Source: a virus
DNA length: 47,972 nucleotides
Strand: one strand, 5' to 3'
IMG/VR virus record: IMGVR_UViG_3300024432_000018
Location: 1 to 47,972 of that record
Part shown: piece after piece, positions 5,143 to 41,444 of the stretch
Position numbering within the stretch: the first letter of the stretch is position 1
How the letters are laid out: the number at the start of each line of letters is the position of its first letter
Translations under genes and position numbers: made by a program
The notes under the pieces: generated by a model
Databases searched by the model: none
The model's input: the letters and a program-made list of their open reading frames with translations, nothing else
Told to the model about the DNA's origin: nothing

Positions 5143-5571
5143 ATGGCACAATTTTTAAGAACAGCAACACCTGACGGAGATTGGCGCAGCTTCAAATTTA
5201 CCAATGCACTCGTTCCGGCTTTAACACTGACCGAGGGTTTGATTTATCAGATCCAGGACACGATTGGGGTATTGCTTCTCGATATCCAATACACAGCAGC
5301 GGGATGCAAAAAAGCCAAGACAATCGGATCAGGCGAAGAGGGAGTTCTCATTTATCATGCGGAGAAAATCCGGGTCAACAAAGATACTGGAGTTGCATGT
5401 CTTCCAGGAGATGCAATTTATTGGAATGGAGTTCAAGGTGGAAATGTCAGTTGTAGATATTCAAGTGGTGGAATTTGGATTGGAATATGTGTATGGGCAG
5501 CCGCAGCGGGTGATACTACAGTTATAATTGACATGAAGGGTGAAGTTGGTCTGCTGGAGTTAATAGCATAA
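5143..5571 (+). CDS. Head decoration protein, DUF2190-like
   Basis: A 142-residue beta-rich protein with an alternating hydrophobic pattern and the segment CLPGDAIYWNGVQGG, typical of the DUF2190/capsid-cement proteins that sit just upstream of the major capsid gene. They trimerise on the capsid lattice and stabilise it against internal pressure. It is separated from the scaffold gene by 72 bases and from the capsid gene by 7 bases. If the glycosyltransferases downstream act on the virion, this surface protein is one candidate target. Confidence 0.7.
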   Translation: MAQFLRTATPDGDWRSFKFTNALVPALTLTEGLIYQIQDTIGVLLLDIQYTAAGCKKAKTIGSGEEGVLIYHAEKIRVNKDTGVACLPGDAIYWNGVQGGNVSCRYSSGGIWIGICVWAAAAGDTTVIIDMKGEVGLLELIA

Positions 5572-5578
5572 GGAGAAA

Positions 5579-6658
5579 ATGATGAGAGGAAAAATAATAA
5601 AAGACTGGGATAAGGTTGACTGGAGAAAACTCTTTGTTCCTGGAGAGAAAGACGTACAACATCAGCGTGCGCTAATGAAGGCACTTTCATTCTTTCTTGC
5701 TATTCCCAACACGAATGTTCCCACACAATTTGCTAGCGACGAGAAGTTCACAGAGAAAAAGAAAGAATTTGACACGGCCAGGATGCAATATTTTGCCACA
5801 CTGAACGATTTCCCCGCAACCGCAAAGGAAGTCATAGACAAATATCACGAACTTGCCGTATATGACAATGGTTTTGAGCAGATCTTCAATATGCGTGATT
5901 ATACCGGATCAAGAAGAGATGGCTTTTCCATTGATACAGTACGGGCAGGACTGACTTTCAGGAAGATGCTAACTGGTGAAAAACTTCATGTCTATCAGAT
6001 GGAAGGAGAGAGAGAGTTCATATACTTCGATTACTATGGCGGAGCACTTGGATGGGATAGGAAGCTCTTTGAGAACCAGGATTGGTGGCAGCTTGAGGAG
6101 AATGCGATTGAATTCAGGAATGAGGCATACAGGATCAGAGCAGCCACGTTTTATGCTTTAATTGAGGCAGTAGGTACGGCTGCTGGATGGGTTGATATTG
6201 GTTGGGCGGCTCATCCCGATGGCGTTGCAGCTGGAAATAGAGGCTATATAGCAGCAAGAGATGCTGCGACCATGAATCTTGCAGCCCAGACAATTCTTCT
6301 GGCATGTCAGGCCAGCGGTTACGGAATTTCAGCACAGAATGTCTCATTTATCATCCTTGCACCAATCCAATTGAGAGCACGAATCAAGCAGGCCCTGGGC
6401 GTAAGTTATGATACAGCAGATCGTGCGACTTCTGTTATCGACTACAATTTCACCACAATTATCACAACCATGCTTGCAGTGACAGATCATTATTGGGTAA
6501 TTCTTCCCAAGAGAAAAATTGTCGGTGGGGATAGGCTGAATTTGGAGACCTATTCTGAATTCGACATGCTTTCTCGGACGGATTCAGCAGCCGGATGGAT
6601 GGCTTTTGCAGGTGGAATTGGAGATACGGACCAGATGGAGCGTTGCAATATCGTTTAG
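5579..6658 (+). CDS. Major capsid protein
   Basis: A 359-residue protein with the length and composition of an HK97-fold capsid subunit, following scaffold and decoration genes and followed by an intrinsic terminator. The N-terminal 60 or so residues are charged and helical; the rest alternates strands with aromatic-rich stretches such as EREFIYFDYYGGALGWDRK near residues 142-162. AAGGAG lies just upstream of the ATG. The assignment rests on gene order, size and general pattern. Confidence 0.8.
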   Translation: MMRGKIIKDWDKVDWRKLFVPGEKDVQHQRALMKALSFFLAIPNTNVPTQFASDEKFTEKKKEFDTARMQYFATLNDFPATAKEVIDKYHELAVYDNGFEQIFNMRDYTGSRRDGFSIDTVRAGLTFRKMLTGEKLHVYQMEGEREFIYFDYYGGALGWDRKLFENQDWWQLEENAIEFRNEAYRIRAATFYALIEAVGTAAGWVDIGWAAHPDGVAAGNRGYIAARDAATMNLAAQTILLACQASGYGISAQNVSFIILAPIQLRARIKQALGVSYDTADRATSVIDYNFTTIITTMLAVTDHYWVILPKRKIVGGDRLNLETYSEFDMLSRTDSAAGWMAFAGGIGDTDQMERCNIV

Positions 6659-6717: not shown

Positions 6718-6731
6718 ATAAAGGAGAGAAT

Positions 6732-6962
6732 ATGACATTTAAAGCATCTGATATTAAGGTAACAATTAAAATGAAAAAGATTGTCAAATTATCAATATTA
6801 TTAAACATTTGGAAAGCTCATCTCTGTTCAGTTGATAGTTATCTTATAGCATTTTGGGCAATTACACACATAAGAATTTATTGGATTCACAAGAGAAAGA
6901 TATTCCCATATTTTGAATTATCAAAAATGGGTAGTTTGACACATTTTGGGTTAGAAACATGA
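6732..6962 (+). CDS. Hypothetical protein, 76 aa
   Basis: First gene after the capsid terminator, with AAAGGAGAG upstream of the ATG. It has a basic N-terminus and a hydrophobic/aromatic middle (residues 20-50), perhaps membrane-associated. It overlaps the following cupin gene by four bases (ATGA). The function is not recognised. Confidence 0.5.
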   Translation: MTFKASDIKVTIKMKKIVKLSILLNIWKAHLCSVDSYLIAFWAITHIRIYWIHKRKIFPYFELSKMGSLTHFGLET

Positions 6963-7300
6963 GACAAGGAAAGAACTGGGGATATACGACAGAATTCTTC
7001 CGTAATGCTATGGTCAGCACCTACCATCTTGAAATAAAGGAAGGTGGGTACTGCTCAGAGCATCGCCATAAACATAAATACAATCTGTTTTATGTTCTCT
7101 CTGGAGTATTGGAATTGACAATCTGGCGTGATAAGAAAAATAAAGATATAACTGTTATTGAAGCAGGGCAATCAACTGCAATATCACCTGGCTTTTATCA
7201 TAAATTCAAGGGATTAACAAAATGCGAGGCTATCGAAATCTATCAAGTTCTTTTGATTGATCCCGATATTGAGCGTAGAACAGTAGGGGGCATTAAATAA
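6959..7300 (+). CDS. Small cupin-domain protein
   Basis: A 113-residue single-domain cupin. The first metal-binding motif is visible as HRHKHKYN near residues 36-43, with the downstream glycine-rich turn LSGVLEL and a second motif ending in a histidine in SPGFYHKF. Small cupins of this kind include sugar epimerases/isomerases and sugar-binding proteins. At the head of the glycosyltransferase block a role in nucleotide-sugar modification is a reasonable inference, but the substrate is unknown. Confidence 0.75.
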   Translation: MRQGKNWGYTTEFFRNAMVSTYHLEIKEGGYCSEHRHKHKYNLFYVLSGVLELTIWRDKKNKDITVIEAGQSTAISPGFYHKFKGLTKCEAIEIYQVLLIDPDIERRTVGGIK

Positions 7301-7398
7301 TGGAAATACCATTTGCTGTAATTTGGATACTTATTGGTATAGGTTTCTTTTTTTTAATATTAACATTTATAGATTTAATAAGACATGGGGGGCATTAA
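7300..7398 (+). CDS. 32-residue single-TM micro-protein
   Basis: The ATG overlaps the cupin stop (TAATG). Almost the whole product is one hydrophobic segment (residues 6-24, rich in Ile, Leu and Phe) followed by a short basic tail RHGGH. The gene is flanked by a direct repeat, GGGGGCATTAAATA, at 7286-7299 and 7388-7401. It may be a genuine membrane peptide or a by-product of a duplication at this junction. Confidence 0.4.
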   Translation: MEIPFAVIWILIGIGFFFLILTFIDLIRHGGH

Positions 7399-7401
7399 AT
7401 A

Positions 7402-9366
7402 GTGACCATAATAACCACGTCAGATATAAGAGTTAGTAAAATCGTAGAAGAAATGGACAGAAGAAGGGAGAACTGCAGGATTAAAAAGCAGAAAGAGGAT
7501 ATGATAAAGGCAAATTGGAAAGAACTCCATAAAAAGGGATTTGGCTATACGGCAGAGGGCAGGAAACCAGTAATTCTTGATTATGAACAGGGAAGAATGC
7601 TTTATGATATTCTGCCTGATGGATCATGGAAAAATCAAAGGTGTTTCATCATTGGAGGAGGCGAAAGCTTAAAGGGTTTCGATTTCTCCAAGTTGAAAAA
7701 CGAACTTGTGATCGGTGTGAACCGTGCTTATGAGATGGGCAACTGTACAATCAATTATGCTATGGATAACAATCTTTACCATTGGATAACGAAGGGAAAA
7801 CTAGGTTGGGAGGCAAAAAAGAGATTTAAAGATTTCAAGGGCATTCCTGTCTGGCTTGACTCTGCCGGTTATGACTATCCAAGAGGCATATTTATACTTA
7901 ATAAATTAGATAGTCATAAAAATAGTTATGTTATGAAAGATGGCATTAAATCGGGAACCAATGCGGGATTCGGTGCCTTGAATCTTGCTGTGTGCCTAGG
8001 GGCCAATCCTATATATCTCCTTGGATTCGATATGGAGGGTAAGGATGGGAAGCAAGTCTGGTGGCACAATGGATATCCCGAAAATCAAATAGAAAGGGTA
8101 TATGATAAATTCATTCTTGATTTCAAGAAAATAGTCCCAGACCTCAAAGAAAAAGGTATTCAGGTAATAAACCTTAATCCTGACAGCAAATTAAAGTGTT
8201 TTGATTTTGGAAAATTCGAAGATATAAAACCGATAAAGCGACCCGTGATCGTATCTTTTTATACAAAGGGAACCGGATATGAAGAGCAGGTAAAACAATT
8301 AAAAATTACTCTGAAGCGATTCAATCTGGAGAATGATGTTGTGGGTATTGCAGACAGAGGCAGTTGGCATAAAAATACTTATTATAAATCACAATTCATC
8401 CAGCAAATGATGAATAAGCATCGCGGACGTTCAATCGTCTATGTCGATGCGGATGCCAAGATGCGCATGAATCCTGTGTTGTTTAATAATCTTAAATGTG
8501 ATTTTGCCTGTCATTTTCACACAGGAAAAGAACTTCTTTCTGGAACGCTTTATTTTGGAAACACAAAGGGGGCTCGTTATTTAATTAAAAAATGGGTAGA
8601 AGAAGACAAGCTACATCCAGAGACCCCTATGCCACAGAAGAATCTGCGAACCGTATTTGACAGGGAGAAGAATAAAATTAAGTGGAAGGCATTGCCTGTT
8701 GAATATTGCATGATATATGACAGCCGTTCACGCTACAGAGTCAATCCAGTTATAGAGCATTTTCAGTTGAGCAGGCAGTACAAGGGTACAAAAAGCAAGC
8801 GGCACAAGGGTACAATAAATCAATCGCTTGTTGAAATACGAAAATTTTGTAAGGATAAAAAAATCTGCCTTCTCGGAAATGCCAATTCTATTCTTAATGG
8901 AAAAAAGGATATAGACTCATTTGATATAGTCTGTAGAATGAATAGGGGATATCCCGGGGGGAAAGAGAAGTTTATTGGTAGTCGTACCGATGTGCTTTTC
9001 TTATCAACGGGCTTGAGTGGTGAGAAGGTTCGGGGCTTATTTAACCCTCGTTTTGTTGTCTGGATGACCGCTTGCCATAGGTTGGCATATCCCTGGGTTT
9101 TTAAAAGTGCCGTACAAAATCCAGCAGAGGACTGGAAAGCTCTTCATAACAAGCTTTCCATAAACCCCACGACTGGCATTATGGCTTTGAATTTCATCCT
9201 CAAGCACATAGATTTTAAAAGTCTCGATATATATGGTTTTGATTTTTTCAAAACGAAGACTTGGTATAATGCAAAAATAGACAATGGACAGAAACATAGT
9301 GGGGAAAAAGAGGAAATTCTATTCATGAACATGATAAAAGATAGGCCAAATGTGAAATTCACATGA
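7402..9366 (+). CDS. Three-domain glycan enzyme: MAF/DUF115-like + GT-A-like + GT29-like
   Basis: A 654-residue fusion. Residues about 73-225 resemble the MAF/DUF115 (MptE-like) fold: CFIIGGGESLKGFDFSKLK, GVNRAYEMG, then LGFDMEG. Residues about 285-420 look like a GT-A nucleotide-sugar transferase with an acidic metal motif YVDADAKM near 345. Residues about 485-654 match the GT29 sialyltransferase pattern: large motif CLLGNANSIL...FDIVCRMNRG, small motif NPTTG near 588, and a final H...E motif (KHSGEKEEI) near 631. GT29 enzymes use CMP-sialic acid, but the donor here cannot be inferred. The start is GTG at 7402. It heads the sugar-transferase series. Confidence 0.75.
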   Translation: MTIITTSDIRVSKIVEEMDRRRENCRIKKQKEDMIKANWKELHKKGFGYTAEGRKPVILDYEQGRMLYDILPDGSWKNQRCFIIGGGESLKGFDFSKLKNELVIGVNRAYEMGNCTINYAMDNNLYHWITKGKLGWEAKKRFKDFKGIPVWLDSAGYDYPRGIFILNKLDSHKNSYVMKDGIKSGTNAGFGALNLAVCLGANPIYLLGFDMEGKDGKQVWWHNGYPENQIERVYDKFILDFKKIVPDLKEKGIQVINLNPDSKLKCFDFGKFEDIKPIKRPVIVSFYTKGTGYEEQVKQLKITLKRFNLENDVVGIADRGSWHKNTYYKSQFIQQMMNKHRGRSIVYVDADAKMRMNPVLFNNLKCDFACHFHTGKELLSGTLYFGNTKGARYLIKKWVEEDKLHPETPMPQKNLRTVFDREKNKIKWKALPVEYCMIYDSRSRYRVNPVIEHFQLSRQYKGTKSKRHKGTINQSLVEIRKFCKDKKICLLGNANSILNGKKDIDSFDIVCRMNRGYPGGKEKFIGSRTDVLFLSTGLSGEKVRGLFNPRFVVWMTACHRLAYPWVFKSAVQNPAEDWKALHNKLSINPTTGIMALNFILKHIDFKSLDIYGFDFFKTKTWYNAKIDNGQKHSGEKEEILFMNMIKDRPNVKFT

Positions 9367-9373
9367 GAAGAAA

Positions 9374-10048
9374 ATGAAAGAAGAAAAGAAAATAATTATA
9401 GCCATTCCCACTTGTTCCTCGGGGCGAATTCCCACGCTTATCAAGACAGTAGAGACAATTCAGGCTGGGGAATATAAGAATGTCCATCCGGTGATACTTG
9501 CTGACGGCAATCCAGAGATAGAAAGGGTGGCAAAAGAAAAGTTGCACCATATTTCAGTTATAGCAAACAGAAAGAGAAGGGACTGGGTATTTTCTATAAA
9601 CCGGATATTACGAGAATTCGATTCGGATTATTATATTTTTGGTTCAGATGACCTCACCTTTCAACCCCGTAGCATTAAATATGCTATGGCAAAAATGCAG
9701 GAATGTTTCCCTGATGGTTTTGGGGTTATTGCCCTTGCAAGGAAAAATAAATGCACCTTTGGTCTCTTCGGCCATAAGTTTGCTGACCATTTTCCGAATC
9801 GGCAGGTGTTTTGTCCCGACTATATACATTATGCTTCAGATTCAGAGCTTATGCGGTGTGTTAGAGCATTGGATAAATATGCTTATCCCCCAGAAAGAAA
9901 AGGCATGGTTTTGCATTCCCGGTTGAAAGATGAAACGTGGAGATTGGCGCGGCGAGTCAGGACTAGAGACCATGTAATACGCGATGAACGACAGGAAAAA
10001 GGTTATTTATGGGGAGTTGATTTTAATCTTATAACAACGAGAAGCTAA
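9374..10048 (+). CDS. GT2-type glycosyltransferase (copy 1)
   Basis: A 224-residue GT-A enzyme. The N-terminal strand IIIAIPTCSSGRIPTLIKTVETI is the nucleotide-sugar binding start of family 2, and FGSDDLTF near residues 92-99 supplies the acidic metal site. The tail contains a Trp/Arg-rich segment (KDETWRLARRVRTRD). It is paralogous to the next gene along its whole length, and their stop and start overlap (TAATG). It probably transfers one sugar to the same glycan as its copy or to a related position. Confidence 0.8.
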   Translation: MKEEKKIIIAIPTCSSGRIPTLIKTVETIQAGEYKNVHPVILADGNPEIERVAKEKLHHISVIANRKRRDWVFSINRILREFDSDYYIFGSDDLTFQPRSIKYAMAKMQECFPDGFGVIALARKNKCTFGLFGHKFADHFPNRQVFCPDYIHYASDSELMRCVRALDKYAYPPERKGMVLHSRLKDETWRLARRVRTRDHVIRDERQEKGYLWGVDFNLITTRS

Positions 10049-10734
10049 TGGAAAGAGGAATGAAGGTAACTGTAGTTGTCCCTAGCTGTTCTTCCAGCCG
10101 AACTCCTATGCTTATCAAGGGGGTTGAATCGATTCAGGCGAATACGTATAAGAATGTCCACATTGTAATCGTTGCCGATGGGAATTTAGATATATTTGAA
10201 ACTACAGGGACATATTTTGAGAACAAAGAATCGGAGAATGTTACAATCATTTTAAATAAAGAAAGGAAGGATTGGGTTTTCTCTATGAACCGAGTGTTTA
10301 AGGAGTTTGGCTCGGATTATTATATCTATGCAGCAGACGATCTCTTCTTTCCACCTGCTTGTATTGATTATGCCATGATAAAGATGTGGCAATGTTTCCT
10401 CGATGGTTTTGGACTTGTCAGCATCGGGAAAAAACATAAATGTGCATTCGGTCTTCTTGGTTATAAGTTTGTCGAGCACTTTCCAGACCGACAGGTATTC
10501 TGCCCCGACTATATACATTATGGTTCGGATGCAGAGCTTTGGTGGACTGCCAACAAGCTAGAAAAGATTGCTTATATAGCACATAGGCCAAGTTCGGTTG
10601 GCCATCATAAAATGAAAGATGAGACGTGGAGAATAGCAGAAGGGTTTAGGGCCAGGGATAATGCAATATATCATCAACGGAAGAAAATGGGTTTAAGTTG
10701 GGGAATTGATTTTAAACTTATAGCAGAAAAATGA
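10048..10734 (+). CDS. GT2-type glycosyltransferase (copy 2)
   Basis: This 228-residue protein is a tandem paralog of the preceding gene. The shared blocks are TVVVPSCSSSRTPMLIKGVESIQ, YAADDLFF (metal site), RQVFCPDYIHYGSDAEL and KMKDETWRIAE. The two copies have diverged considerably, so the duplication is not recent. Both keep the acidic motif, so both may be active, with different donors or acceptors. It overlaps the next gene by four bases. Confidence 0.8.
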   Translation: MERGMKVTVVVPSCSSSRTPMLIKGVESIQANTYKNVHIVIVADGNLDIFETTGTYFENKESENVTIILNKERKDWVFSMNRVFKEFGSDYYIYAADDLFFPPACIDYAMIKMWQCFLDGFGLVSIGKKHKCAFGLLGYKFVEHFPDRQVFCPDYIHYGSDAELWWTANKLEKIAYIAHRPSSVGHHKMKDETWRIAEGFRARDNAIYHQRKKMGLSWGIDFKLIAEK

Positions 10735-11624
10735 TTAAAATTTATTATGTTCCAACATTAGGAGAGGGTACAAGAGAGTATAGGCTTATCAAACAGGGTC
10801 TTATGAATAACTCCAGAGTTGAGCTTGTTGGCAGTAAAGAGGAAGGTGATTTTATCTTCCAGTTTTATTATCTCTCCAAACATAAACAGCATTTTCCCCA
10901 TGATCTCCCACCAGAAAAGACCGTACTCATTGATTATAGCGATAAAGTCTACTGGCTTTCTCATGTTCCGTGCTTTGCGTATTTTAAGAGAAGTTGGCCG
11001 GCGATGGTAAGAAAAGAGAATTACATTAGCAGAACACTTATTCCAAGGGCCCCTCATCTTCATCCCATAATGATGGCGATTATGGATGAGTTCATAATTA
11101 AAGAAGAAATGGAAAGAGATGTAGCACTATCATGTACATTAAGGAGACATCGGCATAGGAAGAAATACGCACACCGTAACAGAGTGAGGGTTTTGGATCT
11201 TTTGGGGAAAATGGATATTCGGGGTAAAACGTATATCGAGGAATTTAATAAGGGAACAATGCAGAGGTTCAATGCGCCGGATATGAGAGATTATTTTAAA
11301 TTATTGAAAAGGAGTAGGATCATAGTGACCTGCAATCCCGATCCGTGGGAGGGAGATCATAGAACATGGGAAGCTTTTGCAAGCGGGACGCTTGTTTTTG
11401 TCGACAGGATGTGGACACCAATGACGTATCCACTCGTTGATGGAAAACACTGTATATTCTACGATCCATCAGATCAGGGACTCGAGGAACTTCGGAAGAG
11501 GATTATATTTTATTTAGAACATGGCGAACTTGCTTATGACATTGCCAGGGAAGGTCACGATTTTACAATGAAATATCACAGGGCATCGAACAGAATAGAT
11601 GAGATATTGGATGTGATAACATGA
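10731..11624 (+). CDS. GT-B (group 1) glycosyltransferase
   Basis: A 297-residue protein. The C-terminal half carries the nucleotide-sugar binding signature of group-1/CgeB-like transferases: CNPDPWEGDHRTWEAFASGTLVFVDR (residues ~202-227), then a helix-rich end that includes YDIAREGHDFTMKYH. The N-terminal half is the acceptor-side Rossmann domain. It is shorter than typical GT-B enzymes (350-400 residues), so the acceptor domain may be reduced. ATGA overlaps on both sides place it in the same translational unit. Confidence 0.75.
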   Translation: MIKIYYVPTLGEGTREYRLIKQGLMNNSRVELVGSKEEGDFIFQFYYLSKHKQHFPHDLPPEKTVLIDYSDKVYWLSHVPCFAYFKRSWPAMVRKENYISRTLIPRAPHLHPIMMAIMDEFIIKEEMERDVALSCTLRRHRHRKKYAHRNRVRVLDLLGKMDIRGKTYIEEFNKGTMQRFNAPDMRDYFKLLKRSRIIVTCNPDPWEGDHRTWEAFASGTLVFVDRMWTPMTYPLVDGKHCIFYDPSDQGLEELRKRIIFYLEHGELAYDIAREGHDFTMKYHRASNRIDEILDVIT

Positions 11625-12226
11625 ATTTCCCTAATGGATGGCTATCGGGAAAGCAGGCTTCATATCTGGCGCAGCTTGTGAGAGATGTTGTTGGAGTGGA
11701 GGGTGGGTTCCTTGAGGTGGGCTCATGGCATGGCCGCTCTTCGGTTGTCATAGGGTTAGAGGTCAAGAAATTAAATAGCTGCCTTTATTGCGTGGATATA
11801 TGGAGTAAAAAAATGGTGGGAGAAGAGGAGAAAAAACGCAAGAAGACAATAAAGGCGTACAGGGATATGCCTGATGTGGCAGCGATATATTTTAAGGGGG
11901 ATTCTTTTCTCATCTTCATCGAAAATATTAAAGTGAATGGCTTAGGTGATACTATAATTCCCGTCGTAGGACTCTCTTCGACGGTAAGGGCAACATGGAA
12001 AATTCCCCTTAGATTCATTTTTATAGATGGTAATCATGAGTATGAATATGTACGTGATGATTCTCTGTGGAGACAGTTTTTAACGATCGGGGGAATTATA
12101 GCTTTTCATGATTATCGGCGGGGGAGCGAGGTCAAAAAAGCTGTCAATGAAGAAATGGATAATGATTCTAATTTTGAAATGATAGGCGGGATTCATAACA
12201 TTAAAGTATTCAGGAGATTGAAATGA
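11621..12226 (+). CDS. SAM-dependent methyltransferase (Methyltransf_24-like)
   Basis: A 201-residue class I methyltransferase. Motif I is GGFLEVGSWHGRSSVVIG near residues 28-45, the acidic strand is LYCVDIW near 59-65, and the FIFIDGNHEYEYVRDD block near 133-148 is typical of Methyltransf_24. A late strand AFHDYRRGSEV follows. In a glycan cluster it could O-methylate a sugar, but a nucleic-acid or protein target is not excluded. Overlaps both neighbours. Confidence 0.8.
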   Translation: MNFPNGWLSGKQASYLAQLVRDVVGVEGGFLEVGSWHGRSSVVIGLEVKKLNSCLYCVDIWSKKMVGEEEKKRKKTIKAYRDMPDVAAIYFKGDSFLIFIENIKVNGLGDTIIPVVGLSSTVRATWKIPLRFIFIDGNHEYEYVRDDSLWRQFLTIGGIIAFHDYRRGSEVKKAVNEEMDNDSNFEMIGGIHNIKVFRRLK

Positions 12227-12753
12227 ATTTGGATAATTATCTGCCAAGACTCAACTTGAAGACAGTAGAATTCTTAAAGAAAATCATAACACCAGAGAGT
12301 TTAGTTTTTGAGACTGGTTCAGGTAATTCGACTATTTGGTTCGGAAAGCAGATCAAAAAAGTTGTTGCACTAGAGGATAATAGAGATTGGTATGATAAAG
12401 TTCGGGAATTTGCAAAGCAAGAAAATCTACAGAATATAAAATTATATTTTGATCCCGACTATTCAAGAAAACAATTCAAAGACATACTGAAAAAAGAGGA
12501 TATTATTGAATATGACATTGTTTTACATGATGGGCCACACAGTGTGGGCTTGAGAATATCGGCGATGAAATTTATACATTCCTTTGTAAAGCCAGGTGGA
12601 TATCTTATTATCGATGATACGCATAAAAGCCAATGTTCGGAAGCGACAAAAAAGTATCTCAATATTTTACGTTGGAAGAAATTAGTCTTTTATGGGCGCG
12701 ATGCTTTCAGAGCAAAGAAATCCGCCATTGTTTATCAAAGATCTTTAAGATGA
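12223..12753 (+). CDS. SAM-dependent methyltransferase
   Basis: A 176-residue class I methyltransferase with a motif I variant (VFETGSGNSTIWFG, residues ~28-41), an acidic strand VVALEDN, the YDIVLHDGPHS block, and PGGYLIIDDTHKS before the last helices. The ETGSGNST form differs from the VELG form in the next three genes, so it is a separate lineage. It overlaps the preceding gene by four bases. Confidence 0.75.
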   Translation: MNLDNYLPRLNLKTVEFLKKIITPESLVFETGSGNSTIWFGKQIKKVVALEDNRDWYDKVREFAKQENLQNIKLYFDPDYSRKQFKDILKKEDIIEYDIVLHDGPHSVGLRISAMKFIHSFVKPGGYLIIDDTHKSQCSEATKKYLNILRWKKLVFYGRDAFRAKKSAIVYQRSLR

Positions 12754-12769
12754 ATGAGGAAATAATTTT

Positions 12770-13348
12770 ATGAATTTAGAGCTTTTTAATAATCTCATGA
12801 AAGAGAAACCAGAACAACAGGAATATGAATGGTTAATGTTTCTGGAAATTTGTGAGACATATTTAAAAAAGCACAAAATCGGAAGCCCCATTATTGTGGA
12901 ATTAGGAGCATATAGGAACTGCCAAAAGAAATTTTACGAACAACTTCTTGGAGCTGAACACATAGGCATTGATGTAAAAGCGTGGCGACATCCTGACATT
13001 GGAGGAAGCACCCATGATCCCAAAACACTAGAGAAGCTCAAGGAGAAACTCAATGGGAGACCAATAAATATCCTCTTTATCGATGCCAATCATCGCCATG
13101 AGAGTGTCAAGAGAGATTTTGAGATATATTCTCCATTATGTACTGATATCATCGTGATTCATGATACAGAAAGTGGCCGATATGAAAACTCAAGAAAGTA
13201 TGAGGTCTGGAGGTTCTGGGATAAATTGAAGAAAGAGTCATTCACGGTAAGAGGAGAGCTTGAAAATTTCTTATTTCTTTCGATACATCAGCATCGTTTT
13301 GAGGGGAATGAATATGAGATGGGAATAGGGATGATAATAAAAAGATGA
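12770..13348 (+). CDS. CmcI-like methyltransferase, tandem copy 1
   Basis: The first of three consecutive paralogs (192 residues). Shared features are a helical N-terminus (MNLELFNNLM), motif I VELGAYRNCQKKFYEQLLGA, the acidic strand GIDVK, NILFIDANHRHESVKRDFEIYSPLC, and a HDTESGRY strand. This is the cephalosporin-hydroxylase/CmcI-type O-methyltransferase layout. AATAATTTTATG upstream gives only a weak ribosome site. It probably methylates sugars or acts on a related surface modification; the substrate is unknown. Confidence 0.75.
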   Translation: MNLELFNNLMKEKPEQQEYEWLMFLEICETYLKKHKIGSPIIVELGAYRNCQKKFYEQLLGAEHIGIDVKAWRHPDIGGSTHDPKTLEKLKEKLNGRPINILFIDANHRHESVKRDFEIYSPLCTDIIVIHDTESGRYENSRKYEVWRFWDKLKKESFTVRGELENFLFLSIHQHRFEGNEYEMGIGMIIKR

Positions 13349-13905
13349 ACTTAAAACTTTTCAATGAACTTACAGAAATGCCATTGGCTCAGGATGTGCA
13401 TGAGTGGAAGGTATTCCTAGAGTTTTGCGAGTCATATTTGGAGAAACATAAAATTGAAAAGCCCATTGTCGTAGAATTGGGTATATGGAGAAATGGGCAG
13501 AAGAAATTTTATGAACAACTTCTGGGGGCATATCATATAGGCATTGATTCATCTAAGAAAAAAAGTAGACCTGATATTCAGGGAAATACGCATGATCCAA
13601 GAACGCTGGAAGCGCTTAAAGCAAAGCTTGGAGGAAAACAAATAGATATTCTTTTCATAGATGCCTCTCACTTGTATGATGATGTGAAAAAAGACTTTGA
13701 GATATACTCACCATTATGCAATGGTATCATTGCGTTCCACGATATAAATAACGGTCGATATCAAGGAGAAAGAGAAGTCTGGAAATTATGGGATGAATTG
13801 AAAGCAGAATCAACCATAGAGGCGGGAAAATATAAGGACTTTTTGTTTATCTCAATAGAAGAGGCAAGGGGGATAACAGGAATAGGACTGATGATAAGAA
13901 AATGA
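13345..13905 (+). CDS. CmcI-like methyltransferase, tandem copy 2
   Basis: The second paralog (186 residues), overlapping copies 1 and 3 by four bases at each end (ATGA). It keeps motif I (VELGIWRNGQKKFYEQLLGA), DILFIDASHLYDDVKKDFEIYSPLC, and the FHDINNGRY strand. Sequence similarity to copy 1 is high over the middle and lower at the ends. Close head-to-tail copies fused by overlap suggest duplication within the operon. Confidence 0.75.
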   Translation: MNLKLFNELTEMPLAQDVHEWKVFLEFCESYLEKHKIEKPIVVELGIWRNGQKKFYEQLLGAYHIGIDSSKKKSRPDIQGNTHDPRTLEALKAKLGGKQIDILFIDASHLYDDVKKDFEIYSPLCNGIIAFHDINNGRYQGEREVWKLWDELKAESTIEAGKYKDFLFISIEEARGITGIGLMIRK

Positions 13906-14495
13906 ATTTAAAACTTTTTAACAAGCTCATGGAGATACCACCACTCCAAACCAGAGACGAGTGGTGGATATTTCTAGAGATTTGCGACTTTTATTTGAAG
14001 GAACGTAAGATCAAGAATCCCATTGTCATGGAATTGGGGAGTTGGAAGGGCAGGCAAAAACCATTCTATGAACAACTTTTTGGGGCCACATATATAAGCA
14101 TTGACCGCTCTAAGAAGGGATACGGGCCTGAAATTCAAGGACTCACTAGTGATCCCAGAACACTAGAAAGGCTCAAGGAAAGACTTGCAGGAAGGCAAAT
14201 AAACATCCTCTTCATTGATGCTGACCATCATTATGAGGCAGTTAAAAGCGATTTCGATATGTACGCACCACTGTGTGATGATATTGTTGCGTTTCATGAT
14301 GTAAATTATCCATCAATTATGAGACTTTGGAATGAACTGAAGGCGAAACCGTCTGTCTCGCCAACAAAGGAAAAAGAGTATCTGTCACCAATGTGGTTAA
14401 ATCTAAGCATAGAGGAAAGAGGATGGGTAGATAAGGATAATATATTTATTTTAATAGAGATGGCAAGTGGAATTGGGATGATGATAAAGAAATGA
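13902..14495 (+). CDS. CmcI-like methyltransferase, tandem copy 3
   Basis: The third paralog (197 residues). Motif I is VMELGSWKGRQKPFYEQLFGA and the acidic block is NILFIDADHHYEAVKSDFDMYAPLC. It differs from copies 1 and 2 by a longer insertion near residues 160-185. The three copies all keep the SAM-binding and acidic residues, so all may be active with different acceptors. Confidence 0.75.
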   Translation: MNLKLFNKLMEIPPLQTRDEWWIFLEICDFYLKERKIKNPIVMELGSWKGRQKPFYEQLFGATYISIDRSKKGYGPEIQGLTSDPRTLERLKERLAGRQINILFIDADHHYEAVKSDFDMYAPLCDDIVAFHDVNYPSIMRLWNELKAKPSVSPTKEKEYLSPMWLNLSIEERGWVDKDNIFILIEMASGIGMMIKK

Positions 14496-15103
14496 AAAAA
14501 TTTATTTTCTACACGGCAGTTTTTGGAAAAAAGTGCAACTGGAAAAAGCCGATATATTCCGATCCGACTATAGATAGGTTTTTTTATACAGATTTGGAAA
14601 TCACAAATGATCTTTATCAGATGAAAAGAATAAAGTTAGATTATCTTGATCCAGTCAGAAGAAACCGATTTATAAAAATCTGCATCCCCGATGAGATATT
14701 CAATAATTATGAATACAGTTTTTATATGGATTACAAACATCCAGTAGCAATTGATTTTGATTATCTCCTAAATTGCCTGGAATCGAATTCTGATATCTTA
14801 ATAACCCCACACAGAAGGAGAGATTGTATTTATGATGAGGGAATGATCTGTATTAAGGGGAAGGAAAATAAAAAAGAGATTATTTTGAAACAATTAGATT
14901 TTTATAAACGTGAAAATTATCCAATCCACAATGGACTTTATGCTGCGTATTGGCTCTTTAGGCGACACACCAAGGAACTGGAAGAGTTTTCAAGGCAATG
15001 GTGGAAGCAAGTTGAAAAATATTCATATCGGGATCAGATAAGCCTTCCCTATGTGGCCTGGAAATATGGGATGAAAATTTCTCCGTTCAAGAGGCCTAAA
15101 TGA
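14492..15103 (+). CDS. DUF616-like glycosyltransferase (copy 1)
   Basis: A 203-residue protein with the DUF616/TOD1-type glycosyltransferase layout: FYTAVFGK at the start, DRFFYTDLE, then YSFYMDYKHPVAIDFDYL (residues ~73-90), where the acidic residues are likely to replace a DXD metal site, and PHRRRDCIYDEG. The C-terminus ends DQISLPYVAWKYGMK. It overlaps the preceding methyltransferase and is followed by a paralog that overlaps it by four bases. Confidence 0.7.
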   Translation: MKKFIFYTAVFGKKCNWKKPIYSDPTIDRFFYTDLEITNDLYQMKRIKLDYLDPVRRNRFIKICIPDEIFNNYEYSFYMDYKHPVAIDFDYLLNCLESNSDILITPHRRRDCIYDEGMICIKGKENKKEIILKQLDFYKRENYPIHNGLYAAYWLFRRHTKELEEFSRQWWKQVEKYSYRDQISLPYVAWKYGMKISPFKRPK

Positions 15104-15717
15104 AGAAGTTTGTTCTTTATACGGCAGTTTTCGGGAAGTTGGGCAAATCTAGGACACCTCAGTTGTCTAATCCAGATGTGGATAGATTTTGTTATACAGA
15201 TTTGGATATTAATGATGAGTTCTATCAAATAAGAAAGATGAATCTGGATCATCTTGAGGCAGTTAGGAGACAACGTCTGATTAAAGTCTGTATTCCTGAT
15301 GAGGTTTTTGACAATTATGAATACAGTTTTTATGTAGATCGTAAACATCCAATAAAGGTCGATTTTGATTATTTTCTGAGCTTGTTAGAACCCCAGTCTG
15401 ATTTTGCAACACGTCCACATCGATACAAAAGAAGAACCTGTGTTTATGAAGAGGGGCGGGTTTGTATTGAGGGGGGAAAGGGTAATGAAGCAGATATCTT
15501 AAAACAATTAGAATTTTATAAAAAAGAAAATTACCCGGTTGATAATGGACTTTATGCCACGTTTGTTTTGTTCAGGCGACATACAAAAAGATTGAAAGAA
15601 TTCTCAAGATTATGGTGGGAACAAATTGAGCGGTATTCACACAGAGATCAGATAAGCCTTCCTTATGTGGCCTGGAAATATGGGATGAAAATTTCTTTAT
15701 GTAAGAGATCGAGATGA
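15100..15717 (+). CDS. DUF616-like glycosyltransferase (copy 2)
   Basis: A 205-residue tandem paralog of the previous gene, with the same blocks: LYTAVFGKLGK, RFCYTDLD, YSFYVDRKHPIKVDFDYFL, PHRYKRRTCVYEEG and DQISLPYVAWKYGMK. The last block is nearly identical in both copies and in their DNA, which indicates a fairly recent duplication or gene conversion at the 3' end. Confidence 0.7.
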   Translation: MKKFVLYTAVFGKLGKSRTPQLSNPDVDRFCYTDLDINDEFYQIRKMNLDHLEAVRRQRLIKVCIPDEVFDNYEYSFYVDRKHPIKVDFDYFLSLLEPQSDFATRPHRYKRRTCVYEEGRVCIEGGKGNEADILKQLEFYKKENYPVDNGLYATFVLFRRHTKRLKEFSRLWWEQIERYSHRDQISLPYVAWKYGMKISLCKRSR

Positions 15718-16505
15718 CAGAGTTAATTACGCTTATTACTCCTACAGGAGATAGACCGCTGGCCTTTGCTCTCTGCCAAAATTGGGTTAGAAAACAAACC
15801 CTGCAACCTTATCAATGGATTGTTGTTGATGATGGAAAGATACCCATGATTCCTTATGCTCCGATGGCTTATATAAGACGAGAACCAGGGGTCAATGATC
15901 CACAGTGCACATTAATCCTTAACCTCATGACCATTCTCCCATTAATTGAAGGCAATAAAATCATAATCATTGAAGATGATGAATATTATGCTCCTAAATA
16001 TGTGGCAGAAACAGCAACTCGACTTGACCAGCATGAAGTTGTGGGCATTGGCGGTACTAAATACTACCATTTGTTTTCAGGTGGACATTATAGCCATAGA
16101 AACTGGGGTCATGCTTCTCTTGCCCAGACGGCATTTCGAAATTCATTTTTGCCAGAATTTAAAAAAATATTAAATACGAATATTGAAATTGCTCGGATAG
16201 ACAAGCATATATGGGAAAAACTTAGGGGGAGTGGTCGCGGAAATATTTTTGGTGATGATGATAATGACCCATTGTATTTAGGCATAAAGGGCTTGCCCGG
16301 TCGTCCTGGCATAATAGGGCATGATCCAAAATCTAGCCCTTATCACAGGAAGGGTTCTCACCCCGATATATCTCATAAAGTTCTAACGCGATGGATACCC
16401 GAAGATTGCGATATTTATATAGATATAATTAAGGGAAAATTGACGGAGGATAATTGTCAATCGTATTTCCTAAATCAAGGAAAGAATAAAAAAGGGCAAT
16501 TATGA
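15714..16505 (+). CDS. GT-A type glycosyltransferase
   Basis: A 263-residue protein. It starts with a family-2 strand (LITLITPTGDRPLAFALCQNW) followed by WIVVDDGK; the metal motif is IIIIEDDEYY near residues 82-91. Residues ~175-200 contain a Gly/Asp-rich loop (GSGRGNIFGDDDND). It has more divergence from the 9.4-10.7 kb pair than they have from each other. It overlaps both neighbouring genes by four bases. Confidence 0.75.
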   Translation: MTELITLITPTGDRPLAFALCQNWVRKQTLQPYQWIVVDDGKIPMIPYAPMAYIRREPGVNDPQCTLILNLMTILPLIEGNKIIIIEDDEYYAPKYVAETATRLDQHEVVGIGGTKYYHLFSGGHYSHRNWGHASLAQTAFRNSFLPEFKKILNTNIEIARIDKHIWEKLRGSGRGNIFGDDDNDPLYLGIKGLPGRPGIIGHDPKSSPYHRKGSHPDISHKVLTRWIPEDCDIYIDIIKGKLTEDNCQSYFLNQGKNKKGQL

Positions 16506-17125
16506 TAGAGGGATTCAGGGATATTTATAAAGGACAGGCAATATGGATTGTCGGCAAAGGGCCAAGTCTGCAATATCTCACGAAAGAGGATGTCGGATCG
16601 GGACCAGTTATCACAATTAATGAAGCTATTATCAAAATAGAAGAACTTGATTTGCCGAATCCTATTTATTCGATGCAGAAAGATGGTGGGGATCGAAGGC
16701 GATATTTCCGCTCACATCCATTTATACTTAGGCCAGATTGTGATTATAAATCAAATTGTGGTGATAAATGTGGTAATATGTATAAACCCAAAAAGGGAGC
16801 AATACTTCTGGTTCATAAGCACGAATCTCTTTATTGTTTTGCCGATTATTTGCCACGCTATGTTTTTGATTGGGCAAAACTTGGACTTAAATGTAATCGA
16901 TTTTCTCTAGTCATAGCAATAAGAATCGGGATTTTGATGGGATGTAAAAAGTTTTGTTTCATATCATTTGATGTGCATACTACTGGTTGTTTAGTTTCAT
17001 ATATCCCCAATGTTGGCATAACTGAAACTAATCCTGCATTTAAGAATTATACATGGAAAGTTAAACGATATCTAAAAAATCTTGATTATATGTGGATTAC
17101 TCCAAAAAAGAGAGCTGCTAAATAA
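16502..17125 (+). CDS. MAF/DUF115-like protein
   Basis: A 207-residue stand-alone relative of the N-terminal domain of the 7402-9366 protein. The nucleotide-sugar-like site AIWIVGKGPSLQYLTKEDV lies at residues 13-31, followed by INEAI and a late FISFDVHTTGC strand. In bacteria such domains occur in flagellin-glycosylation (motility accessory factor) proteins and in glycan clusters. The function here is inferred from context only. Confidence 0.6.
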   Translation: MIEGFRDIYKGQAIWIVGKGPSLQYLTKEDVGSGPVITINEAIIKIEELDLPNPIYSMQKDGGDRRRYFRSHPFILRPDCDYKSNCGDKCGNMYKPKKGAILLVHKHESLYCFADYLPRYVFDWAKLGLKCNRFSLVIAIRIGILMGCKKFCFISFDVHTTGCLVSYIPNVGITETNPAFKNYTWKVKRYLKNLDYMWITPKKRAAK

Positions 17126-17126
17126 A

Positions 17127-17834
17127 ATGATTCCTATTTTTATTATAAGTTTTGAAAGATTGAATGTCTTGGAGCAATCGATACAATCTTATTATGACTG
17201 CATTAAAACACCTTTTGAGATTGTTATCATGGATTTTGGTTCAACCTTTGTGCCAACACTAAAATACTTAAATATTTTAGAATACAAAGGAAGTAAGGTT
17301 TATTGGAAAGGAAAACTTAGTAATAAACGGCGATTTAATATGCGCGTTGATGAAGTCATTCAGGATTATTTCAAGACCCACCCCGCGAGCAATTATGTAG
17401 TGACTGATCCTGATATAGCCCTAGATAATGTTGATGGAGATATCTTGGAAGTTTATACGCATCTTCTTGGAATTTTGCCTGAAAATTATATTGTCGGCTC
17501 GATGTTGAGAATAGATGATCTTCCAGATCATTATCCATTAAAAGACGACGTGCGCTTTAGGGGATGGGAGCCATATTATCACTCAAGGAAAGTGAAGACG
17601 ATTCAATATAAAGATAAGATAATAAAATATGTTCTTGTCAAGATTGATACTACTTTCGCAATGAATAGGGCGGGAACGCATTGGAGGAGACACATGAAAG
17701 CAGCCAGGGTTTTGCCTCCTTATGGGGCAAGACATTTGGAGTGGTATCTTGATCCCAAAAAGCTGACTCCAGACCAGAAATATTATATGAAACATGCTTC
17801 AAGGGGAATTACCCATACTTTTAAGGAGGCTTAA
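17127..17834 (+). CDS. GT-A type glycosyltransferase
   Basis: A protein of 235 residues when started at ATG 17127, two bases after the previous stop. The N-terminus PIFIISFERLNVLEQSIQS and the acidic motif VVTDPDIALDN near residues 91-101 fit a GT-A fold with a DPD-type metal site. A longer reading from TTG 17082 overlaps the preceding gene and adds no recognisable sequence. It is the last sugar-active gene of the block; AAGGAGGC before the following ATG starts the fibre genes. Confidence 0.7.
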   Translation: MIPIFIISFERLNVLEQSIQSYYDCIKTPFEIVIMDFGSTFVPTLKYLNILEYKGSKVYWKGKLSNKRRFNMRVDEVIQDYFKTHPASNYVVTDPDIALDNVDGDILEVYTHLLGILPENYIVGSMLRIDDLPDHYPLKDDVRFRGWEPYYHSRKVKTIQYKDKIIKYVLVKIDTTFAMNRAGTHWRRHMKAARVLPPYGARHLEWYLDPKKLTPDQKYYMKHASRGITHTFKEA

Positions 17835-18194
17835 ATGAAAATAGGCTATCATAGCACGATTATTGATGTTTCATCTGGTAAGGGAAAGCTGGCATTTATT
17901 ACTGTGTTTAATGCTGGAACGGAAGATAAGTCGACAATCTATCTGGATGTGGAAGGAAGCTCTTTGAATAATCCCTTCCAGACTGATATGTATGGAAGAT
18001 TTAGTTTCTTTGCCACTTCTGGAGCATATGATATTGAGGTTTCTGGGATTGGCATTGTGACTTATAAACTGGAAGGAGTTTCAATAATGGGTTTATCGTT
18101 TCCACCAAAAGATATGTATGGGGTTGTAAATTTCTTCTATAATCCCAGCACAGACATGGTGGAAGTAATAACCGCCGATAAACCTGCTAAATAA
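17835..18194 (+). CDS. Virion appendage / fibre-type protein, 119 aa
   Basis: A beta-rich protein with the pattern FQTDMYGRFSFFATSGAYDIEVSG, common in phage tail-fibre and head-appendage proteins (a short beta-sandwich with aromatic spine). AAGGAGGCTTAA lies right before the ATG. It is the first structural gene after the glycan block and a plausible target of it. Confidence 0.6.
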   Translation: MKIGYHSTIIDVSSGKGKLAFITVFNAGTEDKSTIYLDVEGSSLNNPFQTDMYGRFSFFATSGAYDIEVSGIGIVTYKLEGVSIMGLSFPPKDMYGVVNFFYNPSTDMVEVITADKPAK

Positions 18195-18207
18195 ACAGGA
18201 GGTTAAA

Positions 18208-18675
18208 ATGGGAAGAATACTATTAGACCCAAACGCAGTTGCCTACACAGATGATGAAATTGTAGGCAAGGTGAATGCAGCTGCGGCTAAAGTCAGCAGG
18301 GTAGATGCGATTGAACCTGCTGCCCTTGAAGAGACTGCCGCTTTCCAGAAACTCTCACAGACAAAAGAAGATAAGCTAGATGGTATTGCTGAAGGCGCAG
18401 AGGTTAATCCCGCTGATTTAGCAGCACTAGATTCAGCACAGGACACGAAACTCAATGGAATTGATACTGGTGCAAAGGTTGACCAAGATGGAGACAATAT
18501 AGTTGCTGCCATTAACTCTGGAACTAATCCAATTACTCGTGAAGCTGCACTCAGTCAAGCTGATTTGAAGCTTGTTAAAAGTGAACCAGCATCTGGAGAA
18601 AGAGCCATTACTTCAGTTTCCGTTGATGCAGATGACAAACTGGCTGCCGACCATAGCGACACACCAGAGCCGTAA
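18208..18675 (+). CDS. Fibre protein with KLxGIxxGAxV repeats
   Basis: A 155-residue, Ala-rich protein. Two copies of the phage-fibre repeat are visible: KLDGIAEGAEV at about residues 57-67 and KLNGIDTGAKV at about 81-91. Such repeats form trimeric beta-structure or coiled coil in tail and head fibres. AGGAGGTTAAA precedes the ATG. It lacks a long receptor-binding tip, so the following gene may supply one. Confidence 0.75.
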   Translation: MGRILLDPNAVAYTDDEIVGKVNAAAAKVSRVDAIEPAALEETAAFQKLSQTKEDKLDGIAEGAEVNPADLAALDSAQDTKLNGIDTGAKVDQDGDNIVAAINSGTNPITREAALSQADLKLVKSEPASGERAITSVSVDADDKLAADHSDTPEP

Positions 18676-18687
18676 GCTAATTGAAAC

Positions 18688-19017
18688 GTGAGTAGGACAA
18701 ATTTAGGCGCAAAAGAACTGTGCGACGGAAGCGTGACAAGTCTACACGCTCATTCAGGAGGTGGCAATGGAGCAATCATTAAATCTGGTGAGATTGTGAC
18801 AGATGGAGATGGCAATGGTATTGTCATATTTGGAACGGCATTCCCTGATGTGAATTATGCGATTTCTTTTGGTTGCGATGGCTCGAATGACGACATAATT
18901 TCTACATGGTTAAACAAGACTGTTAATGGTTTTGATGTTAGAACTCATGATGATGGAGGCAAGGATGAAGCTAATGTTATAGTTAATTGGATTGCAACGC
19001 CATATAGTAATCCATAG
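18688..19017 (+). CDS. H-type lectin-like fibre tip, 109 aa
   Basis: The protein has an SLHAHSGG motif near residues 18-25, typical of fibre domains with HxH, followed by an IVIFGTAFPDVNYAISF...GFDVRTH...VNWIAT pattern that resembles the short H-type lectin sandwich in phage fibre tips. The start is GTG at 18688 with only a weak ribosome site, 13 bases after the previous stop. It may be the separate receptor-binding end of the preceding fibre. Confidence 0.6.
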   Translation: MSRTNLGAKELCDGSVTSLHAHSGGGNGAIIKSGEIVTDGDGNGIVIFGTAFPDVNYAISFGCDGSNDDIISTWLNKTVNGFDVRTHDDGGKDEANVIVNWIATPYSNP

Positions 19018-19029
19018 AGCAGAATGTAA

Positions 19030-19215
19030 ATGATAATAGGATCTACTAATGCAATCGCAATATTATGGAGAGAATCGCCTGTTTTGTTTAAGGTTAATCC
19101 AGAAAAAAGAAGGTTTGACGTAGAAAAAGAAAGAAGGATATTTAATGTCAATCCAGAAGAGAGAATATTCAAAATTATTCCAAGAGAAAGAATATTTAAA
19201 GGACAACAAGAATGA
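19030..19215 (+). CDS. Short protein with F-x-V-x-P-E-x-R repeats
   Basis: A 61-residue protein. After residue 18 it consists of four or five copies of a 9-10 residue unit (FKVNPEKRR, FDVEKERRI, FNVNPEERI, FKIIPRERI). Each unit alternates a hydrophobic residue with a charged turn, suggesting a repeating beta-structure. Similar repeats occur in phage head genes next to connectors. It overlaps the next gene by four bases. Confidence 0.6.
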   Translation: MIIGSTNAIAILWRESPVLFKVNPEKRRFDVEKERRIFNVNPEERIFKIIPRERIFKGQQE

Positions 19216-19493
19216 GTCAGCCGATAATTGAGAAATATAATTCCGAGCGATTCAAGATTGGATTGCAGTATTTTCCGCCAGACTTGCCAGATGGCGAGAC
19301 GATTGACAAAGTGGATGTCGGGGTTTATCCTTTGGGATTGATGCTGGAGGGTGATTCTGAGATAGATGGAAATACGGTAAAGCAGATGATAGGCGGGGGA
19401 AAAAGGCTAACAAATTATGTCATCACTTTCAATGTAGAGATATCGACGGGAAACAGTTTTGAGAATACTATTTTAATAAAGATCGTTTTTTAG
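19212..19493 (+). CDS. Structural protein, 93 aa
   Basis: A small beta-rich protein with the segment FKIGLQYFPPDLPDGETI and a Gly-rich loop, typical of short genes between fibre-type and connector genes. It is translationally coupled to the repeat protein before it. No individual function can be given; a head-surface or connector-associated protein is likely. Confidence 0.55.
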   Translation: MSQPIIEKYNSERFKIGLQYFPPDLPDGETIDKVDVGVYPLGLMLEGDSEIDGNTVKQMIGGGKRLTNYVITFNVEISTGNSFENTILIKIVF

Positions 19494-19502: not shown

Positions 19503-19964
19503 ATGAGTTTGGGATGGTTCGATGATCTCACGGATGCGAAGGCTTATTTTTCAACCGAGAGGCTTGTGACAACTAGCTGGGACGCAATGATCGACGCACT
19601 CAAAACCAAAGCCGTAACGAATGCCTATAACCGGATATTCTATAATTCCAAATATGACGTACCGACCTATGCTGCAGCTACGGCTGCCCAGTTGATAGTG
19701 TTAAAGAAGGTGAATGGTGAGATGGCTTATTATTTGGCACAGCATCTAGAGGATGAGGACAGGCGCATGGGCTTGCGCGCGCAAGGAGTTACAAAAGCAG
19801 GGATAGTAGAGGAAGAATACAAGGATGACATAGAGCTTCCTATCCCTCCGTTCATTGATGACATATTAGAAGAGGAGGGTTTTACAACCGAGAAGGCATT
19901 TGGTATGGTAGATGTGGACAGAGACGAGGATAAATCCGTTGATGAAAAGGTCGATAAATTTTAA
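19503..19964 (+). CDS. Head-tail connector-like protein
   Basis: A 153-residue helical protein with a DnaT-like/gp6-type head-tail connector pattern: MSLGWFDDLTDAKAYFSTERL followed by several helices and an acidic tail. Its position before the minor head and head-closure genes fits an adaptor that docks under the portal. GGAGGTTAAG precedes the ATG. Confidence 0.6.
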   Translation: MSLGWFDDLTDAKAYFSTERLVTTSWDAMIDALKTKAVTNAYNRIFYNSKYDVPTYAAATAAQLIVLKKVNGEMAYYLAQHLEDEDRRMGLRAQGVTKAGIVEEEYKDDIELPIPPFIDDILEEEGFTTEKAFGMVDVDRDEDKSVDEKVDKF

Positions 19965-33387: not shown

Positions 33388-33396
33388 TTGATTCTC

Positions 33397-33738: not shown

Positions 33739-33954
33739 CTTGTCTCCCTTTTTTATCAGCCAACAATAGCGAGTATTCAATACCCCAGCATTGACTGTTC
33801 CAATTTCTCTTTTTGTCAGATTCTCTTTCATAGCAATACTAATATAGGTTATATGACCATACATTGTAATAGTCTTTGGAGATGAAATTATCTCATCTGA
33901 AAGGATTAGACATTCTAGGGGGAGAAAATAGTTTGTGAATGGCAAAGAAAAAGC

Positions 33955-40827: not shown

Positions 40828-40913
40828 TTGATTATTTATTACCGTTGCTCATAATCACCTGCTTCATATGGCTATGCTATGAGATTGGAAAACAGATTAA
40901 AGAGTTGTGGTGA
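40824..40913 (+). CDS. Single-TM micro-protein, 29 aa
   Basis: GTG start overlapping the previous TGA, with GGGAG of R2 upstream. One hydrophobic segment (LLPLLIITCFIWLCY) and a basic/charged tail. Possible membrane peptide; function unknown. Confidence 0.4.
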   Translation: MIDYLLPLLIITCFIWLCYEIGKQIKELW

Positions 40914-40934
40914 ATTTATAAGAAGGAGGAGTGA

Positions 40935-41439: not shown

Positions 41440-41444
41440 AGTGA

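Follow-up and report, generated by a model that had tools for sequence, protein, structure and literature searches.

The window analysed here is a single viral contig of 47,972 bases (IMG/VR record IMGVR_UViG_3300024432_000018), whose head-gene operon harbours an island of glycosylation-related genes. The island (6959-17834) consists of a cupin gene and 14 sugar-transfer and methyltransferase genes, and is located between the end of the gene for the major capsid protein (MCP; 6658) and a head-tail connector family gene at 19503. The initial annotation of this DNA had counted at least twelve sugar-active genes between these two landmarks and had assigned almost a quarter of the genome to them, and both statements agree with the gene content recovered by Pfam searches and with the share occupied by the island, 11.1 of 48.0 kb (23%). 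The size it gave for the span 6732-17834 (11.1 kb) was likewise correct, but the first open reading frame (ORF) of that span, 6732-6962, carries no sugar-gene evidence. All the gene types it named are present; however, what it listed as separate “MAF-like” and “GT29-like” genes turned out to be parts of one three-domain protein.

The island genes are all co-directional, and ten gene junctions overlap by no more than 4 nt, mostly by exactly 4 nt. Promoter-like and terminator-like matches in the island do not exceed the shuffled background and there is no excess of terminators, while the GC content is 37.6% as compared with 41.8% in both structural flanks. Three of the five methyltransferases encoded by the island score above the Pfam cut-off for Methyltransf_24 and two just below it. 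The cupin may be a sugar isomerase; its sole match in a PDB sequence search was an oxalate decarboxylase. PDB sequence searches with the whole alignment of the 654-aa protein, the methyltransferase set and the detached GT2 protein gave nothing useful, and no NCBIfam match exceeded the cut-offs. For the last gene of the island, the ATG at 17127 is by its context a better start than the TTG at 17082.

The first enzyme gene after the cupin, referred to below as the anchor, encodes the 654-aa protein. Its domain 1, modelled from an alignment with 60 relatives, was found to be most similar among solved structures to the Magnetospirillum Maf glycosyltransferase 5MU5 (Z 14.7 over 179 residues, about 13% identity), followed by the GT42 sialyltransferases CstII and CstI and the archaeal pterin kinase HPPK (Z 11.7-11.8; CstII 11.8). 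CstII is also picked up by sequence with the domain 1 family profile (E 3.9e-4), and 11 columns of the 60-row alignment are invariant, the invariant residues including Asn38, Asp141 and His153 in the numbering of the domain. No genes for the synthesis of CMP (cytidine monophosphate)-nonulosonate were identified in the island. The best structural match of domain 2 is A064R of the algal virus PBCV-1 (2P6W; Z 17.0, root-mean-square deviation 3.0, 180 aa, 10% identity), with LH3 (15.6) and glycogenin (15.3) close behind. The model of the whole protein obtained with AlphaFold2 (AF2) is of moderate confidence only (mean predicted local distance difference test score, pLDDT, 62.6), although domain 2 is well modelled within it.

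The anchor is fixed behind the MCP gene in this lineage. An MCP profile search of viral contigs yielded 139 relatives, the best 80 of which were examined; 69 of these loci reach 600 nt or more past the MCP gene. The scan itself posed no requirement for glycan genes. The set of relatives is not fully neutral, because many of the loci used to build the profile had been obtained via the Maf-like domain and the best 80 favour closer relatives. A Maf-like gene was detected within the next two ORFs after the MCP gene in 64 of the 69 loci by hidden Markov model (HMM) and in four more by tblastn, the remaining one showing a cupin gene and then the end of the contig. In 68 of 68 evaluable relatives, the first gene behind the MCP gene to encode an enzyme is the Maf-like one; the MCPs of these relatives form 47 clusters at 80% identity. 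The arrangement is therefore more than a matter of chance, and the question raised earlier, whether related phages keep the island at this place, can be answered positively for its Maf-like gene. With an earlier MCP profile, built from four sequences, a Maf-like gene was present in all loci that continue past the first gene after the MCP gene. A search with the Maf-like domain itself gave 326 contigs, 80 of which were examined as a separate set; 55 loci of this set contain an MCP of the window type, and the Maf-like gene follows it in all 55, directly in 43 and after one gene, often a cupin, in 11. Locus L006 was dropped, since its contig is GC-rich and the ORFs matched there seem to represent a spurious frame.

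Behind the anchor the gene content varies strongly. In 30 loci (numbered with the prefix L) the connector gene could be located as well, and 1 to 20 ORFs lie between it and the MCP gene; the interval of the window, 12.8 kb, is the largest, and in L051 the Maf-like gene stands alone. A small version, found in L004 and L005, consists of a cupin, a 652-aa enzyme, GT2, CgeB, a methyltransferase, DUF616 and another glycosyltransferase-like gene. The window follows the same order with two GT2 genes, three methyltransferase genes of the L004/L005 kind, two further methyltransferase genes and two DUF616 genes, its tandem copies sharing about 47-61% protein identity. Each copy differs from its sister about as much as it does from the one gene of L004 (nonsynonymous divergence, dN, 0.23-0.39; synonymous divergence, dS, saturated; dN well below dS), which indicates that the tandem copies arose long ago and have been conserved. 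As a separate protein, the gene at 15714 encodes a domain that L003, L008, L011 and L014 carry in fusion with the Maf-like domain. In place of such genes, other relatives hold epimerases, pyruvyltransferase, radical SAM, LicD, cytidylyltransferase and a gene with weak sulfotransferase likeness. The window island is a mosaic with tandem duplications. In tree tests, a clade of the window, L004 and L012 was rejected with portal and MCP data (p 0.006); with domain 1 data the three were grouped and the backbone clade was rejected (p 0.03). As these groups were chosen once the identities were known, the tests are to be taken as support for exchange and not as proof. The sequence comparisons as a whole suggest that the genes behind the anchor have been duplicated, lost and exchanged between phages.

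Two further observations concern the same operon. The gap between the island and the connector in the window (17835-19493) contains four small Ig-like or fibre-like ORFs, which are absent from L004, L008 and L011; in L010 and L014 larger, unrelated-looking ORFs occupy this place. In the closest relative, L002, a sugar gene that by sequence resemblance is NAD-epimerase-like (6723-7673) is situated between the portal gene and the next head gene, and may represent a second glycan site.

Maf-like genes are also encoded by unrelated cultured phages, where they are usually labelled “sialyltransferase” or hypothetical. In Tetraselmis virus S20, an MCP-like gene and one ORF are followed by two Maf-like genes with glycosyltransferases and a methyltransferase, up to head closure. 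The Maf-like gene of Pseudomonas phage D3 lies two genes after the MCP gene, with a methyltransferase farther along, that of PAJU2 comes after head closure, and that of CcrColossus after the tail genes. In P1 (L021, 79592-81452), the Maf-like gene is pmgO, annotated as putative morphogenetic and followed by pmgP, ppp and the glycosyltransferase gene pmgQ. At metagenomic loci lacking the MCP of the window type, the genes upstream of the Maf-like gene match at least five other MCP families as well as head-tail adaptors. No paper on the function of the Maf-like genes of D3, PAJU2, S20 or P1 was found in the literature searched. It is tentatively proposed, as a reading for which the chances fall slightly short of even, that the arrangement emerged or spread in several phage groups unrelated to one another and is a phage counterpart of O-antigen and capsule loci, in which an anchor and a recombining cassette would give each phage its own head-glycan “serotype”.

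We consider it likely that the island is a phage-encoded virion-glycosylation locus acting on a head protein. Membrane-like segments are lacking in 15 of the 16 island ORFs, the other being borderline, and in all 47 ORFs inspected in relatives, and no flippase, polymerase or oligosaccharyltransferase was seen; since the proteins are thus predicted to be soluble, stepwise transfer in the cytosol from nucleotide sugars is likely. Such sequential transfer would probably resemble that of Maf systems (PMC4065374) and the A064R work (PMC9614988); in Maf systems, a self-assembling protein is glycosylated in the cytosol by a flagellin O-glycosyltransferase (PMC4065374, PMC11339370). In the proposed scheme, the Maf-like domain 1 would probably place the first sugar on a head protein, either the MCP or the decoration protein, before the head is assembled or in the course of its assembly. 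The other domains of the anchor, together with the GT2, CgeB-like and DUF616-type enzymes, would then add further sugars singly from host nucleotide sugars, and the five S-adenosylmethionine (SAM) methyltransferases would methylate them. No clear gene for nucleotide-sugar synthesis is present in the island, with the possible exception of the cupin, so that the donors should be host-derived; some relatives bring their own. What the analysis shows directly is which genes the island holds, where they lie, how their folds match, that they are conserved and that the island is a mosaic with tandem duplicates; the acceptor, the donor sugars, the order of the reactions and the biological use of the glycan we infer. 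The putative acceptors are probably the MCP, the constant neighbour of the anchor, and the cement protein encoded just upstream, and the glycan may serve for shielding against antibodies or proteases, receptor contact or stability. Given the duplication, loss and exchange of cassette genes, related phages should bear different head glycans.

Several observations weigh against this interpretation. Glycosyltransferase folds by themselves leave the acceptor unfixed, nor do conserved Ser/Thr residues of the MCP and the cement protein single out a clear acceptor. Domain 1 scores 21.0 bits against Pfam PF01973 (MptE-like, formerly MAF_flag10/DUF115), below the gathering cut-off of 34.6, and for this reason it is called Maf-like and not Maf; its relatives reach up to 27.3 bits. 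In L015, the first gene after the MCP gene encodes a methyltransferase and the contig then ends. Moreover, no such genes are annotated after the MCP gene of Microcystis phage MACPNOA1, a distant isolate with 26% MCP identity, and the locus is therefore not universal.

If the virion is glycosylated, the acceptor might be a tail or fibre protein and not the capsid or cement protein. The small fibre-like ORFs between the island and the connector, the larger ones in L010 and L014, and the position of the CcrColossus gene are in line with this possibility. However, L004, L005, L008 and L011 lack those ORFs and still have the Maf-like gene behind the MCP gene, and L051 has nothing but the MCP, Maf-like and connector genes. 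Because the Maf-like gene trails the MCP gene even where fibre-like genes are missing (L004, L008, L011), a head protein fits better than fibres, and a tail or fibre acceptor seems rather improbable. The suggestion of the initial annotation that capsid, decoration protein or fibres are glycosylated and methylated is accordingly the best-supported one as regards the virion, given the place of the genes behind the MCP gene, the soluble enzymes, the structural matches with Maf and A064R and the precedent of phage Corndog, and fits less well as regards the fibres.

Alteration of a host envelope glycan, leading to serotype conversion or superinfection exclusion, is a common role of phage glycosyltransferases, and one GT2 protein of the island shows a very weak match to a GtrB-like PHROG (E 0.007). 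The island resembles the Gtr O-antigen conversion cassettes in comprising phage-encoded glycosyltransferases, but it lacks multi-transmembrane GtrA/Gtr-type proteins, its genes sit in the structural operon, and they trail the MCP gene across several MCP families. No flippase, membrane transferase or polymerase was found among the island ORFs and no lysogeny gene in the window, where ORFs of at least 200 aa were tested for integrase. Conversion of host lipopolysaccharide, which the initial annotation had named as a refuting outcome, is thus not supported, and a role at the host envelope appears quite unlikely. It could also be argued that unrelated cargo with no joint function has collected at a hotspot here, as the gene content of the island differs strongly among phages; yet the variable genes analysed are overwhelmingly glycan-related, the paralogues are conserved and the anchor is never missing in evaluable MCP relatives, which makes this very improbable. 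Hypermodification of phage DNA with sugars, for which virus-encoded glycosyltransferases exist (Pyle et al. 2024, as cited in PMC12619734) and which would suit the match of some island methyltransferases to a PHROG named “DNA methyltransferase”, is the least credible option, because no base-hydroxylating or thymidylate-synthase-like enzyme was found among the window genes scanned (a few small ORFs lay outside the scan) and the cupin, GT42/GT29-like and DUF616 enzymes fixed beside the MCP gene do not fit it.

The principle of virion glycosylation is already known from mycobacteriophages such as Corndog. Cluster O mycobacteriophages encode an O-methyltransferase and glycosyltransferases between the portal and protease genes (PMC4351075), and a passage of PMC11600133, citing Freeman et al. 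2023, reports that these enzymes modify capsid and tail tube proteins. The claim that the island is an undescribed system therefore holds in half, as far as these accounts go: a smaller locus of like kind is known. The window shares with Corndog the presence of glycosyltransferase and O-methyltransferase genes inside a siphovirus head-gene operon. It differs, in a comparison made by description, in having a cupin and 14 genes between the MCP and connector genes as opposed to four between portal and protease, and in that a Maf-like multidomain enzyme leads a content swappable across a diverse uncultured lineage. Maf itself, which domain 1 resembles most closely in fold, has just the catalytic-type domain in common with the anchor; in the window this domain is fused to other glycosyltransferase domains and encoded beside a capsid gene and not flagellin. 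The PBCV-1 proteins A064R, which adds sugars to the capsid glycan, and A061L are likewise virus-encoded multidomain glycosyltransferases with sugar methyltransferases, and domain 2 is nearest to the first domain of A064R (PMC9614988); this fold-level match, however, is common to other GT-A enzymes (Z 15-16), and PBCV-1 is a eukaryotic giant virus with N-glycans. D3, PAJU2, S20 and P1 pmgO have the same domain, beside head-tail genes in the first three, but few genes each. No description of a link between Maf and capsids was found in the literature searched, and the Maf-like anchor appears to be undescribed, as do its fixation throughout the lineage and the exchangeable cassette behind it.

The window record is probably a complete genome, as a 126-nt direct repeat occurs near both ends (6-131 = 47847-47972). 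The structural operon in its left part is of the standard siphovirus type, with terminase (263), portal (1528), a gene at 3879, longer homologues of which span the protease/scaffold place in relatives, and then the genes listed in Table 1. The cement protein family is present in 51 loci, and the connector comes straight after the island in L004, L008, L016 and others. In the remainder of the window, two minus-strand ORFs (33031-33945) lie at the flip of the GC skew, one with a membrane-like N-terminus and the larger one with no PHROG match; four HNH endonuclease-type genes (34222, 37618, 42368, 43879) include one fused to a YopX domain; and a repeated element, GTGTCGCATAAG followed by a strong ribosome-binding site, precedes several small genes at 40765-41665 and is possibly regulatory. 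A near-identity DNA search of phage records with the window gave no match. The sole GTDB match, L018 (JAOZHP010000121.1), is a 39% MCP relative on a short contig binned as Candidatus Bathyarchaeota, which is either a hint of an archaeal host or mis-binning; the NlpC/P60 gene at 45279 of the window rather suggests a host with peptidoglycan.

Table 1. Features of the island and of the adjoining structural genes in the window.
Feature	Position	Strand	Evidence
Head decoration/cement protein, 142 aa, candidate acceptor	5143..5571	+	Phage_cement_2 24.0 bits, cut-off 24.0; PHROG 122
MCP, 359 aa, candidate acceptor	5579..6658	+	Phage_capsid_4 E 8e-6, just below cut-off; PHROG 24071
76-aa ORF, no family match or sugar-gene evidence	6732..6962	+	44% identical to ORF at same place in L007
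Cupin, 113 aa	6959..7300	+	Cupin_2 E 1.4e-8; 86% identical, same place in L007
Three-domain glycosyltransferase, 654 aa, anchor gene	7402..9366	+	Pfam segments; AF2 whole-protein model
Domain 1, Maf/GT42-like, shared by the genes behind the MCP gene in all evaluable relatives	7609..8217	+	AF2 pLDDT 95.1; fold matches
Domain 2, GT-A fold, residues 279-462	8236..8787	+	Structural match; PF03407 in homologues L009, L010
Domain 3, GT29/sialyltransferase-like	8854..9363	+	Glyco_transf_29 26.9 bits, cut-off 23
GT2 glycosyltransferase a	9374..10048	+	Glycos_transf_2 E 4.5e-9; 66% identical to single L004 copy
GT2 glycosyltransferase b, tandem paralogue	10048..10734	+	Pfam GT2; about 50% aa identity to copy a
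GT-B glycosyltransferase, CgeB-like	10731..11624	+	Glyco_trans_1_2 E 2e-15; 57% identical in L004
SAM methyltransferase 1	11621..12226	+	Methyltransf_24 E 3e-17
SAM methyltransferase 2	12223..12753	+	Methyltransf_24 E 1e-6; weak TylF
SAM methyltransferase 3, tandem paralogue set	12770..13348	+	Methyltransf_24 just below cut-off; weak RMNT_CmcI
SAM methyltransferase 4, tandem paralogue set	13345..13905	+	Methyltransf_24 E 6e-7
SAM methyltransferase 5, tandem paralogue set	13902..14495	+	Methyltransf_24 just below cut-off
TOD1/MUCI70 (formerly DUF616) glycosyltransferase a	14492..15103	+	PF04765 E 3e-12
TOD1/MUCI70 (formerly DUF616) glycosyltransferase b, tandem paralogue	15100..15717	+	PF04765 E 2e-14; 61% aa identity to copy a
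GT2-type glycosyltransferase	15714..16505	+	Pfam GT2 E 2.6e-4, just below cut-off; 63% identical to L008 fusion domain
207-aa protein, probable second Maf/GT42-like transferase	16502..17125	+	hhalign to Maf-like N-terminal motif E 1e-4, 48 columns, probability only 58%; no family match
235-aa glycosyltransferase-like protein	17127..17834	+	No Pfam match; 47.5% identical to L003 island gene
Head-tail connector family gene, right border of locus	19503..19964	+	Relatives in 43 loci
Minor head protein	20797		Family searches
Tape measure	24155		Family searches

As far as found, reported glycosylation of phage virions is limited to a few mycobacteriophages. If the interpretation given here is true, head glycosylation would be a lasting trait of a large lineage of uncultured phages and would recur in unrelated phages, including the laboratory phage D3 and possibly P1, whose genes have vague names; phage genes loosely labelled “alpha-2,3-sialyltransferase” would be accounted for as well. 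The locus would also be a source of new multidomain glycosyltransferases, which may modify proteins with no need of a lipid carrier. The benefit of a sugar coat to phages would then become directly testable, and so would the role of the P1 pmg genes in virion modification.

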